From: Pseudofrankia coriaricola
GTDB lineage: Bacteria; Actinomycetota; Actinomycetes; Frankiales; Frankiaceae
DNA: 64,000 nucleotides
Assembly (NCBI RefSeq): GCF_001854805.1
Contig: NZ_MBLO01000274.1
Location: 1 to 64,000 of the forward strand
Reading direction: 5' to 3'
Positions within the stretch are counted from its first letter, which is position 1, and the number at the start of each line of letters is the position of its first letter. The notes below the pieces were generated by a model. It was not told the origin of the DNA. It did not search any database and worked only from the letters and a program-made list of their open reading frames with translations. Shown piece after piece: positions 3,273-8,634 of the stretch. Made by a program: the position numbers and the translations under genes.

Positions 3273-4751
3273 GTGAGCGATGACGTCGGCATGTCGGCGG
3301 ACGAGGACAAGGCGGCGCGTATCGCGGAGGATCTGCGCTCGCGTGGCATCGGGGTGGTGGCGCTGACCTGGGTCGACAACAGCGGGATCACCCGGGTCAA
3401 GGGCGTGCCGGTCGGCAGGCTGGAGCGAGCCGTCCAGGCGGGTGTCGGGGTCTCGCCGGTGTTCGACGCGTTCGGGCTGACCGACGGGATCGCGTTCGGC
3501 CGCTATGCCGGGGGCCCGGTCGGCGACCTGCGGCTGCGCCCGGACCTGGACCGGCTGGTGCCGCTGGCCGCCCAGCCGGGCTGGGCCTGGGCACCGGCGG
3601 ACCGGTTCGACCAGCTCGGCCGGCCGCATCCGCAGGACGCCAGGGAGGTCCTGCGCCGCCAGGTCGACGCGCTCGCCGGCTTCCACGGCGGCATCGGCTT
3701 CCAGGCGCGGGCGGGCATCGAGATCGAATGGAATGTCTACGCCGAGGGCTGGCAGCGCTTCTCGGCGCCAGGCTCGATAGCCATGGGGCCTGCCTACGGC
3801 ATGGATCGGGTGATCGAGCTTTCCGACTACCTGCGCGATGTCGTCCAGGCGCTGACCGAGCAGGGGCTGGTCGTCGAGCAGATCCACCCGGAATACGCGC
3901 CGGGGCAGTTCGAGGTGTCCGTCGAGGCCGAGGACCCGCTCGGGGCGGCTGACAGCAGCGTGCTGGTCCGCCAGACCGTGCGCGCGGTCGGCGCCCGGCA
4001 CAAGCTGCGCACCTCGTTCTCGCCGGCGGTCGTCCCGAATGGCGTCGGCAATGGCGGGCACGTGCACCTGAGTCTCGGGATGAAGGACAGTCCGCGTTGG
4101 AACGCGCTCGTGGACGGGACGGGTCCGGCCGGGCTGAGCCAGCTGGGCGAGCGGTTTGCCGCCGGGATACTCGGCCACCTGCCCGCGCTGCTGGCCGTCG
4201 GCGCGCCCAGCGTCGCCTCGTACCTGCGGCTCGCGCCGTCGCGCTGGTCGGGCGCGTTCGCCTGCTGGGGCGTGGAGAACCGAGAGGCCGCGCTGCGGTT
4301 GGTGACCGGCCTGGCGGTCGGCGGACGGTCGGTGCACTCACCAGACGTGGAGGCCGAGCTGGGAGTCAAGATCAGCCTCGAGCGGTGGGCTGCCGCGTCC
4401 CCGAACCTCGAGATCAAGTGCTTCGATCTGACCGCCAACCCGTACCTGCTGCTGGCGGGCCTGCTGGCCGCCGGGCGGTCAGGTGTCGCGGCCCACGAAG
4501 CCCGCCTGCCCGAGCCGGTCGACGTCGACCCGGCCTCGCTGACCGAGGAAGAGCGAGCTCGGCGCGGCATAGCGGCGCTGCCGGCCCGGCTCGCCGATGC
4601 CGTGACCGCGTTCGAGGGTGACTCCGTCCTGCTCGACGCGTTCGGCGCCGAGCTGCACGACACGATCCTCGTCGTCCGCCGGGCGGAGATCGACCAGTTC
4701 GCGGACGCCACCCCCGACGAGATCGTCGCTCAGACGCTCTGGCGGCACTGA
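3273..4751 (+). CDS. Glutamine synthetase family protein (gamma-glutamyl ligase type)
   Basis: ATP-dependent ligase of the glutamine synthetase superfamily, 492 residues. The catalytic-domain motifs are visible: EVSVEAEDPLGAAD, NGVGNGGHVHLSL (metal/glutamate-binding His), SRWSGAFACWGVENREAALRL and EIKCFDLTANPYLLLAGLLAAG. The family includes true GlnA and GlnA-like enzymes that glutamylate polyamines or ethanolamine; the divergent N-terminus (DLRSRGIGVVALTWVDNSGITRVKGVPV) places it among the GlnA-like proteins, so I do not call it glnA. GTG at 3273 is preferred because AGGGG lies six bases upstream; ATG 3291 is the alternative. The amidohydrolase at 7051 on the same strand is the type of domain fused to such ligases in FluG proteins, which hints at a shared pathway. 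Confidence 0.9.
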   Translation: MSDDVGMSADEDKAARIAEDLRSRGIGVVALTWVDNSGITRVKGVPVGRLERAVQAGVGVSPVFDAFGLTDGIAFGRYAGGPVGDLRLRPDLDRLVPLAAQPGWAWAPADRFDQLGRPHPQDAREVLRRQVDALAGFHGGIGFQARAGIEIEWNVYAEGWQRFSAPGSIAMGPAYGMDRVIELSDYLRDVVQALTEQGLVVEQIHPEYAPGQFEVSVEAEDPLGAADSSVLVRQTVRAVGARHKLRTSFSPAVVPNGVGNGGHVHLSLGMKDSPRWNALVDGTGPAGLSQLGERFAAGILGHLPALLAVGAPSVASYLRLAPSRWSGAFACWGVENREAALRLVTGLAVGGRSVHSPDVEAELGVKISLERWAAASPNLEIKCFDLTANPYLLLAGLLAAGRSGVAAHEARLPEPVDVDPASLTEEERARRGIAALPARLADAVTAFEGDSVLLDAFGAELHDTILVVRRAEIDQFADATPDEIVAQTLWRH

Positions 4752-5417: not shown

Positions 5418-6350
5418 TCAGGCCTGGGCGGCGAGCTCGCTGGTGGCCCGTGCGGCGCGGGCGGCGCGCTTCTCCTCCTGGAGGGTGGCGAAGGCGTCGA
5501 GTCCCTCGAGGAAGGACGCCACCTCGGCCCTGGCCTGCTCGGCCTCGCCGCCCAGGCCCTCCAGCGCGAAGAACTGCCACTGCCGCAGAACCGGCGTCAC
5601 CACCTCGTCGTGGTGGACACGCAGGTTGTAGATGCCGGCGTCGGCGATCTGGCGGGCCTTGGACTTGAAGTCGAGGATGCCGGTGCCGGGCATGTCGAAG
5701 TTGAGAACCTCGTCACGGATGGCCAGCACGGTCTGGTCCGGGGCGAGTTCCAGCGCGGCGGTGACGAGGTTCCGGTAGAAGATCATGTGGAGGTTCTCGT
5801 CGGCGGCGATCCGGGCCAGCAGCTTCTCGGCCACCGGCTCCTGGGTGAACCGGCCGGTGTTGCGGTGGCTGATCCGGGTGGCCAGCTCCTGGATGGTCAC
5901 GTAGGCCATGACCCGCAGCGGGGACTTGTTGCCGCTGTCGTAGCCGAGCTCCATCTGGTGCATCCGGCCGCGCTCCAGCGCCACCGGGTCGACGCCGCGG
6001 GTGACCATCAGGTAGTCCCGCATCGCGATCGCGTGCCGGCCCTCCTCCGCGGTCCACCGGCCGACCCAGGTGCCCCAGGCGCCGTCGCGGCCATACGCCG
6101 AGGCGATCTCCCGGTGGTAGCTCGGCAGGTTGTCCTCGGTGAGCAGGTTGACCTCGAAGGCGATCTGGGCGACATCGGACAGCGCCGACTGCTCCGGCTC
6201 CCACGGCAGGGTGTCGAAGTCGCGCCCCAGACTCCACGGCACGTACTCGTGCGGCATCCACTCGGCGGCAAGACCGAGGTGCCGGTCGATGTTCGCCGCG
6301 GCGACTGGCTCCAGCTCGCGCAGCAGATCCAGGTCCGTGGGTGAGGTCAT
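5418..6350 (-). CDS. Acyl-ACP desaturase-like di-iron protein
   Basis: Ferritin-like di-iron oxygenase of the plant-type soluble acyl-ACP desaturase family, 310 residues, predicted to introduce a double bond into acyl chains using O2 and reduced ferredoxin. Metal-ligand motifs are present: Glu in FEVNLLTEDNLPSYH, EEGRHA (ExxH), Glu in TIQELATRISHRN, and DENLHM. Length matches the actinobacterial DesA group. I chose ATG 6350; an in-frame ATG twelve codons upstream is possible. The C-terminus ends in an Ala/Arg-rich stretch. It is transcribed alone, away from the DnaA-box region at 6574-6712. Confidence 0.9.
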   Translation of the reverse strand: MTSPTDLDLLRELEPVAAANIDRHLGLAAEWMPHEYVPWSLGRDFDTLPWEPEQSALSDVAQIAFEVNLLTEDNLPSYHREIASAYGRDGAWGTWVGRWTAEEGRHAIAMRDYLMVTRGVDPVALERGRMHQMELGYDSGNKSPLRVMAYVTIQELATRISHRNTGRFTQEPVAEKLLARIAADENLHMIFYRNLVTAALELAPDQTVLAIRDEVLNFDMPGTGILDFKSKARQIADAGIYNLRVHHDEVVTPVLRQWQFFALEGLGGEAEQARAEVASFLEGLDAFATLQEEKRAARAARATSELAAQA

Positions 6351-6573
6351 GGACTGACCATCGCAGCCGAACCCCGGGCTCGCCATGTCCCAGCGGAGTG
6401 GACTTGCCGGCCGTGAACTGTTCCGCGGGAACAGTTCAGCCGTCCGCGGCGACCGCCGGGCCCGGCCTACCGCGCGGCCGTCATCCTCGAAGACCGCCGT
6501 TGGCCGCGCGGCCAGTCTCAGCGTCCGGACGTTGGTCCAGCTATCGGTTTCACCGATGTCGTTCGGCCCGTGG

Positions 6574-6712
6574 CTGTCCACAGTCGTCCACAGGCGACGG
6601 GTCGCCGGAAACCCCTGCACAGAGGACGGTCAAGGCCCGCGAGTTCCATAGAGGCGGGTCTACCAACCTGGTTATACACAGGCCACCCCCACTTCTCCAC
6701 AGGTTATCCACA
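6574..6712 (+). promoter_or_regulatory. Cluster of five DnaA-box-like 9-mers
   Basis: Within 139 bases lie CTGTCCACA (6574-6582), TCGTCCACA (6584-6592), TTATACACA (6672-6680), TTCTCCACA (6693-6701) and TTATCCACA (6704-6712), all in the same orientation. The last is the canonical DnaA box, the third fits TTATNCACA, and the others differ by one base from the canonical or the actinobacterial TTGTCCACA form. No dnaA, dnaN, recF or gyrB is nearby, so this is not the usual chromosomal origin. It may be a DnaA-titration or DnaA-regulated site upstream of the desaturase gene. Confidence 0.7.
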
Positions 6713-6769
6713 GGCTCTGGGTTGGGCGCCGGGACGCGGGAGCCGCCAGTCTGGACCGCTTTCCCGGCA

Positions 6770-6840
6770 AGTGATCCTGGGGACAACGGCCGCCGGGCGT
6801 GCGAAGGAAGATCATTTTCGCACACCCTTTGGCCCACTAG
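6770..6840. repeat. 70-bp palindromic element, family 1 (copy A)
   Basis: Matches copy B (27522-27591, inverted) almost base for base. The hairpin arms are GGGCGTGCGAA (6796-6806) and TTCGCACACCC with an 11-base loop; one pair is G-U-like in this copy. The flanks carry GTGATCCTGGGG on the left and TTTGGCCCACTAG on the right. It lies in the gap between the desaturase and amidohydrolase genes. Confidence 0.85.
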
Positions 6841-6910
6841 GCGGCCACGGATGGTGGCGGCGCATCGGCGCGGTACCAACCGGCCATCTCGTCTACCTGG
6901 AACCAGCCCA

Positions 6911-7001
6911 ACCACCGCCATACGCCTGGGTCCGGAACCACATGGGAGGGCGCTCAGCGCCCGACACGGGGCGAGCGCGTCCAGCGCCGCGCCCCGGCAT
7001 C
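6911..7001. repeat. About 90-bp interspersed repeat, family 2 (copy 1)
   Basis: Shares ACCACCGCCATA, GGGCGCTCAGCGCCCGACA and GGGGCGAGCGCGTCCAGCG with the inverted copy at 18364-18454. The GGGCGCT/AGCGCCC core is a self-complementary 15-mer. It ends about 50 bases upstream of the amidohydrolase start. The tandem unit at 4-95 is a shorter relative. Confidence 0.8.
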
Positions 7002-7050: not shown

Positions 7051-8634
7051 GTGTCGGTGCCACGGATCGAGACGCTCGAATCGCTCCCGCTGGTCGACCA
7101 CCACTGCCACGGGCTGGTGCGGCGCGAGCTGAACCGCATGGACTTCGAACGGGCCATGACGGAGGCCGACCATCCGGGGCCGCGGGGGGCCTCGTTCTTC
7201 GACAGCCAGCTCGGCTTCGCGCTGCGGCGCTACTGCGCGCCGGTGCTGGACCTGCCCGCGCACGCCCTGCCAGACGACTACCTCGCCCGCCGGGCGGAGC
7301 TCGGCGCCGACGAGGTGGCGTCACGGATGCTTCGGTCGGCCGGCATCGCCGACTTCTGCGTCGACACCGGGTTCGCCCCGGAGCGGCTCACCAGCGCCGC
7401 GGATCTCGCCACGGCCGCGGGTGGCCGCGGCCATGATGTCGTCCGGCTCGAGCCGCTCGCCGAGCAGGTGGCGCTCGACATCGTGACCGGCCAGATCGGC
7501 GTCGCCCACTTCCCCGACCACGTGCGCGCTCGCCTCGCGGCGCGCGCGGCGGCTGACGGCGGCAGCGCGGGCGCTCGCCCCGCTACCGGTGACAGTGCTC
7601 CCGTCGTCGGGGTGAAGTCGGTGGCCGCGTACCGAGTGGGCCTGGAGCTGCCCGCCGAGCGGCCCACCGACCGGGTGGTGATCGCGGCTGTACGGTCCTG
7701 GATCGGCCGGCTGCGCGCGGGCGCGCCGATTCGGCTCGCGGATCCAGTGCTGCACAGCTTCCTCATCTGGGCGGGCGCCGACCTGGGCCTGCCGGTACAG
7801 ATCCACACCGGCTATGGGGACACCGACCTGCACCTGAGGCGGGCCAACCCGCTGCTGCTCACCGACATGCTCCGGGCGCTCGCGTCAACCGGCGCACCGG
7901 TGCTGCTGCTGCACTGCTACCCGTTCCACCGCGAGGCGGGCTACCTCGCGCAGGTCTTCCCGCACGTCTACCTGGACGTCGGCCTAGCGACCCATAACGT
8001 CGGCCGGGCGAGTGCGACCGTTCTCGCTGAGGCGCTGGAGCTCGCACCGTTTGGCAAGCTGCTGTTCTCCACGGACGCGTTCGCCCTCGCCGAGTTGTAC
8101 CCGCTGGGTGCGCGCCTGTTCCGCCGGGCGCTCACGGCCCTCCTGGCCGCGGGCATCGCGGACGGCGACTGGACGGCCGATGACGCGGACCGCGTCGCGG
8201 TCATGGTGGGGGCCGGCAACGCCCGTCGGGTCTATGGCCTGGCGGAGCCGGCCGGCGGTGCCGAGCCCGAGCCCACCGAGGCGCGGGCCGCGAAGCCGCG
8301 CGCCCGCGCCACCGGCGCCGGCACGAAGAGGCGTGCCGCCGCGAGGTCGTCCACGGCGAAGCCGTCGGCCGAACGACCGGCCGGGACGAGACGATCCGCC
8401 GAGAAGCCGGCCCGGGCGGAGACGCCGGCCGCGAAGGCGCCGGCCGAGGAGCCGGAGGCGGCGGAGCCGGCGAAGGCGAAGCCAGCCGCGACGAAGCGGC
8501 CGGCCGGCACGGCGGCCAGGCGGAACACGGCCAAGCGCGCGCCGGCCAAGAAGGCGGGTCCCGCGAAGAAGGAACCCGCCGCGAAACCGGCCGCGGCCAG
8601 GCGGCCGCCGAAACCGCCGCCCGACGCGAGCTGA
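7051..8634 (+). CDS. Amidohydrolase with a histone-H1-like Lys/Ala/Pro tail
   Basis: Metal-dependent hydrolase of the amidohydrolase superfamily, 527 residues. The catalytic domain (1 to about 397) has the first metal motif DHHCHG (H18, H20), HTGYGD (H252), HCYPFH (H288) and FSTDAF (D342). This type is fused to glutamine synthetase in FluG proteins, and a glutamine-synthetase-like gene lies 2.3 kb upstream on the same strand. From about residue 398 the protein becomes a 130-residue tail dominated by Ala, Lys, Pro and Arg (AKKAGPAKKEPAAK), like the tails of actinobacterial nucleoid proteins. GTG 7051 is preferred for its GGGGGA ribosome site at 7035-7040. The tail is in the same frame with the same base composition, so it looks genuine rather than a misread. 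Confidence 0.9.
   Translation: MSVPRIETLESLPLVDHHCHGLVRRELNRMDFERAMTEADHPGPRGASFFDSQLGFALRRYCAPVLDLPAHALPDDYLARRAELGADEVASRMLRSAGIADFCVDTGFAPERLTSAADLATAAGGRGHDVVRLEPLAEQVALDIVTGQIGVAHFPDHVRARLAARAAADGGSAGARPATGDSAPVVGVKSVAAYRVGLELPAERPTDRVVIAAVRSWIGRLRAGAPIRLADPVLHSFLIWAGADLGLPVQIHTGYGDTDLHLRRANPLLLTDMLRALASTGAPVLLLHCYPFHREAGYLAQVFPHVYLDVGLATHNVGRASATVLAEALELAPFGKLLFSTDAFALAELYPLGARLFRRALTALLAAGIADGDWTADDADRVAVMVGAGNARRVYGLAEPAGGAEPEPTEARAAKPRARATGAGTKRRAAARSSTAKPSAERPAGTRRSAEKPARAETPAAKAPAEEPEAAEPAKAKPAATKRPAGTAARRNTAKRAPAKKAGPAKKEPAAKPAAARRPPKPPPDAS

Follow-up and report, generated by a model that had tools for sequence, protein, structure and literature searches.

A DnaA-box cluster outside oriC is conserved across Frankiaceae and is a predicted DnaA-binding control site

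A group of DnaA-like boxes that lies between a desaturase and an amidohydrolase gene, away from replication-origin genes, raises the question of whether it is a chance assembly of motifs, a piece of an origin, a promoter element or a DnaA-binding site involved in initiation control. This question was addressed for the window, a stretch of 64,000 nucleotides from Pseudofrankia coriaricola. A scan of the + strand identified five 9-mers in the same orientation, each with at most one mismatch to TTATCCACA/TTGTCCACA (TTRTCCACA) and all packed into 139 bp (6574-6712; Table 1). Two of the five fit TTATNCACA, which confirmed the preliminary description of the cluster, and one is an exact consensus box, the other four missing the strict consensus at one position. 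Elsewhere in the window one-mismatch matches were solitary (6778, 18350, 33394, 38635 and 51330, the first of them within a dispersed repeat) and no second cluster was found in the 64 kb, as had also been claimed.

Table 1. Coordinates of the DnaA-box element, its parts and the neighbouring genes in the window
Feature	Position	Strand	Basis or remark
Glutamine-synthetase-like (GS-like) gene	3291..4751	+	Pfam PF00120, E=2.4e-70
Acyl-ACP desaturase gene desA (FA_desaturase_2)	5418..6353	-	Pfam PF03405, E=2.6e-64
Whole DnaA-box element	6565..6720	+	Profile match, single copy in genome
Extra DnaA-like box CTGTCCACA	6574..6582	+	Starts 10 bp before box A
Box A TCGTCCACA	6584..6592	+	One-mismatch scan with TTRTCCACA
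Conserved spacer block GGAAACCCCTGCACAG	6607..6622	+	Alignment within the genus, most genomes of which have a similar block
Box B TTATACACA, weak box	6672..6680	+	Mostly TGTCCCCA in sister genera
Box C TTCTCCACA	6693..6701	+	Box D follows at 11 bp
Box D TTATCCACA, exact consensus	6704..6712	+	TTRTCCACA in 17/17 genomes
Amidohydro_2 gene	7051..8634	+	Pfam PF04909, E=4e-11; start codon inferred from RBS-like GGGGGAAG

For TTATCCACA with one mismatch, the window held six matches compared with 1.39 expected, and none of 100 shuffles reached six. In the whole genome (11.2 Mb in 280 contigs), exact TTRTCCACA occurred 51 times versus 22 times for the reversed control, and with one mismatch the totals over the 11.2 Mb were 1,209 and 1,048, respectively. 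The near equality of these last two counts is what a chance cluster of degenerate motifs has in its favour, but the clustering is far beyond chance and the spacing is identical in 17 genomes (see below). Based on the one-mismatch density, ~2.5e-6 clusters of five boxes in 139 bp would be expected in 11.2 Mb (Poisson), a post hoc estimate that still has an ample margin; the many chance clusters that, according to the preliminary description, would speak against its proposal are thus not expected from the genome-wide count. Tandem box pairs elsewhere in the genome were few and smaller, with seven matches versus none for the reversed pattern. Given that box clusters are rare and enriched genome-wide, this one is not explained by chance, and its conservation had by itself already ruled out a chance cluster, which we regard as extremely improbable. 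A density of DnaA boxes above chance over a short distance is a property of extra-oriC DnaA-box clusters, and the element has it.

The element was present in all eight genomes of the genus with the same layout: a pair of boxes at 10 bp, then a spacer, then a trio spaced by 21 and 11 bp. At the place of the extra box (6574) TCCACAG was found in 8/8 of these genomes, and in the sister genera this box is not retained. Among genomes G000, G004, G005 and G006 the flanks were barely alignable, whereas the element aligned. In G001, G002 and G003 the entire element is inverted, including the spacer block GAAACC.CTGCACAG, and both neighbour genes keep their orientation. Beyond the genus the spacer block is only loosely retained. 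In the window's genome profile R1 matched at 6565-6720 (E=1.1e-33) and profile R2 at 6568-6719 (E=2.9e-20), the next match in the genome (4.3e-4) being the box cluster beside dnaA.

Two further candidates were rejected. A structured RNA at the element had a z-score of 0.13, no useful covariation and no Rfam match on the element, and a mobile or repeated element is at odds with the profile search, which gave one strong match genome-wide. The repeat DNA at 6770-6999 is adjacent but separate and consists of two different dispersed types (6770-6846 and 6844-6999, roughly 71-77 bp and 156 bp long) that recur tens of times genome-wide, the shorter type also standing in tandem at G000:C136:10309-10525. 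Both types are frequent in G005 and G006, two close relatives, and were not found in G007.

To cover the family, the sequence-only profile R1 was run on related genomes and recovered the element from Parafrankia (g2) and from genus g6, each match lying upstream of the amidohydrolase gene. A four-box core (A, then B-21 bp-C-11 bp-D) was located at orthologous positions in 17 genomes from three Frankiaceae genera. The spacings of 21 bp (B-C) and 11 bp (C-D) were identical in 17/17 loci, the latter being partly selected for since the loci were cut out by boxes C-D and the former being free of that selection, and the A-B spacing varied from 65 to 124 bp. Across the 17 loci, 25 of the 27 invariant alignment columns fell inside boxes, which make up 36 of the 121 ungapped columns (Fisher p=3e-15). 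The TCCACAG of box A was invariant in the 17 genomes and three genera, and box D was TTATCCACA in 16/17 and TTGTCCACA in 1/17. Both are textbook DnaA boxes, and the element profile also matches the cluster beside dnaA (E=4.3e-4); these observations argue against the boxes being read by another protein with a DnaA-like site, an improbable reading in whose favour one can name that boxes B and C deviate from the strict consensus and that DnaA binding is predicted.

In genus g3 no orthologous element was found by the profile search, the best matches there being different clusters, and in g3 genomes (L232, L235) a DnaA-box cluster was seen between rplI-like and dnaB genes. Outside Frankiaceae the top profile match (E=2.5e-6) was intergenic, beside serS- and pheA-like genes; the family bearing it is probably Streptomycetaceae, and the match may or may not be Streptomyces D78. 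Other clusters were also observed within the family. The Parafrankia genomes (L172-L176) have a second strong cluster at a separate locus, whose four boxes are spaced by about 10/11/11 bp (TGTCCACAGCTCTCCACA...TTATCCACA), and two exact TTGTCCACA boxes, 18 bp start to start, lie just upstream of recA (L078, G000:C210:50656-50682), a similar pair being found in other Frankiaceae genomes.

The element is not the replication origin. The dnaA gene of the window's genome is on another contig (C259, near 202-204 kb) and seven one-mismatch boxes just downstream of it form an oriC-type cluster, directly downstream of dnaA being the customary place of oriC in actinobacteria. In four relatives with complete chromosomes the element was 481, 419, 362 and 737 kb from dnaA, corresponding to 5.5-9.8% of the chromosome, and the distance in G006 was 379 kb. 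The claim that the cluster is located away from replication-origin genes was therefore borne out; the element does not adjoin dnaA/dnaN, and in the complete relatives it is outside oriC yet in the chromosome region near oriC. No AT-rich unwinding region was found at the element, as no 60-bp window between 6000 and 7400 is below 55% GC. Given dnaA elsewhere with its own box cluster and no AT-rich stretch at the element, oriC itself was rejected. A remnant or secondary origin would explain why there is a box cluster, which counts among oriC ingredients, but with the oriC-type cluster directly downstream of dnaA and a lowest 60-bp window of 55% GC we consider it very improbable. GC skew, sampled at 18 places in G001, was too weak and noisy for placing origin or terminus. 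Among the other tandem box pairs in these genomes, 13/24 were within 10% of the chromosome on either side of dnaA, more than expected (p=2e-4, an optimistic value because orthologous clusters are shared among genomes and not independent).

The neighbouring genes point to a different partner from the one first proposed. The amidohydrolase gene adjoins the element in 17/17 Frankiaceae loci, whereas the positions of desA, tmk and the GS-like gene vary. The desaturase gene diverges from the element solely in the window's genus, where desA takes the place of the GS-like gene and the latter is located elsewhere; in the sister genera desA is 2-8 kb from the element with the amidohydrolase gene always adjacent, and in G007 the element is beside the amidohydrolase gene, with a sigma-factor-like frame (recognized by eye) and tmk between element and desA. 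The GS-like gene diverges across the element from the amidohydrolase gene in 3/5 Parafrankia genomes and in three g6 genomes. The earlier proposal of a titration or regulatory site upstream of the acyl-ACP desaturase consequently survives in its first half, as the box cluster is outside oriC and family-wide with fixed spacing, and loses the link to the desaturase, given the constant amidohydrolase neighbour and the genes that intervene in G007.

Two other features were noted at desA. On the strand opposite to the desaturase gene there is an Rfam match to the ASdes antisense sRNA (5977-6044, +, 70.4 bits), which may merely reflect conservation of the coding sequence. The palindrome CTGTTCCGCGGGAACAG (6418-6434) upstream of desA is retained in relatives including Parafrankia and looks like an operator for a desaturase regulator.

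The constancy of the amidohydrolase neighbour suggests a further explanation, in which cluster-bound DnaA acts as repressor or activator of the amidohydrolase promoter, together with the divergent GS-like gene in the sister-genus arrangement. In several genomes box D is merely tens of bp before the amidohydrolase gene. In g3, where no orthologous element was found, the amidohydrolase gene was likewise not found, with no match in G009 and none within ~17-18 kb around desA in five g3 genomes. Upstream of 20 amidohydrolase homologues from other families no box cluster was found. A constant neighbour and a g3 in which neither gene nor orthologous element was found fit promoter control as well as or better than titration. 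A DnaA-regulated promoter would be expected to have its boxes at a fixed place relative to the gene start; here the neighbour is the same in 17/17, the gap to the gene varies up to ~340 bp, the value in the window, where it contains the two inserted repeats, and the element is inverted in three genomes. The tight linkage could also reflect too little room for breakpoints within the promoter region. Because of the persistent amidohydrolase neighbour we keep promoter control as a tentative alternative, possible though rather unlikely, and if it were true a probable nitrogen-metabolism enzyme pair would be tied to replication or to the DnaA-ATP level.

Given that the same sites, the same spacing and the same downstream gene are kept in relatives, the element is very probably a genuine DnaA-binding control site of a type already described in Streptomyces, Bacillus and E. 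coli. Neither orientation (inverted in G001-G003) nor gene distance (repeats inserted in the window) is kept, which favours a DnaA binder over a classical operator. The reading that we lean towards is that of a cooperative, oriC-distal DnaA-binding site that would sequester DnaA or otherwise lower initiation. In line with general knowledge of DnaA, the helical phasing, the uniform strand and the combination of one strong with several weaker boxes would fit cooperative head-to-tail binding; the boxes, their single copy and fixed spacing, their place relative to dnaA in relatives and the inversion are observed, and we infer DnaA binding, cooperativity and an effect on initiation. DnaA monomers would most likely line up head-to-tail along one helix face at boxes B, C and D (21 and 11 bp being about two helical turns and one), starting at the strong box D and then filling the weaker boxes cooperatively, and DNA bending across the 65-124 bp to B could bring in box A. 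Because the site is copied fairly early after initiation at oriC, it would, by binding DnaA or speeding its ATP hydrolysis, damp further initiation in the manner of the Streptomyces and Bacillus clusters and of E. coli datA. The effect of this single element could be small since it is one among several box clusters. A combined role, in which the element would both buffer initiation and set amidohydrolase/GS-like expression via the B-21-C-11-D array and so couple nitrogen metabolism to replication in Frankiaceae, appears doubtful.

Control of initiation is poorly known beyond E. coli, Bacillus and Streptomyces, and in the library searched no literature joining Frankia with DnaA boxes was found. 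In relatives of Frankia, a single-copy element with precise spacing throughout the family offers a small target open to direct testing, and its natural inversion provides a built-in test of whether orientation matters.

Among the known systems, the E. coli sites datA, DARS1 and DARS2 stay at constant relative distances (PMC4585315). Like datA, the Frankiaceae element is a non-coding box cluster with a conserved relative distance near oriC, in which the protein sites are conserved and the spacers between them vary (PMC4585315). datA requires IHF and drives DnaA-ATP hydrolysis (PMC5295017); in the Frankiaceae element the A-B spacer, in which an IHF-type bending site would lie, is 65-124 bp long and variable. 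DARS1 and DARS2, which regenerate DnaA-ATP (PMC4585315), are similarly small DnaA-box clusters outside oriC, but nothing in the Frankiaceae element speaks for a regeneration activity.

Two further comparisons come from Bacillus and Streptomyces. Okumura et al. in 2012 reportedly described oriC-proximal DnaA-box clusters (DBCs) in B. subtilis, and Smulczyk-Krawczyszyn et al. in 2006 are said to have described the clusters D78, H24 and H69 in S. coelicolor. The clusters near oriC in both species repress untimely initiation (PMC4585315), and deletion of all six clusters in B. subtilis leads to early initiation (PMC5295017). As with the DBCs, there are box clusters beyond oriC and more than one per genome; in contrast, the effect in B. 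subtilis is spread over six clusters, to which the Frankiaceae element has no demonstrated sequence relation. With the S. coelicolor clusters the element shares an actinobacterial host, a place outside oriC in the oriC-proximal chromosome part and several boxes in a short stretch, and it differs in locus and neighbours, in being known here from its sequence, and in the 21/11 same-strand geometry and amidohydrolase/GS-like association that are specific to Frankiaceae. These findings suggest that the element adds a predicted new member to the already known class of extra-oriC DnaA-box clusters.
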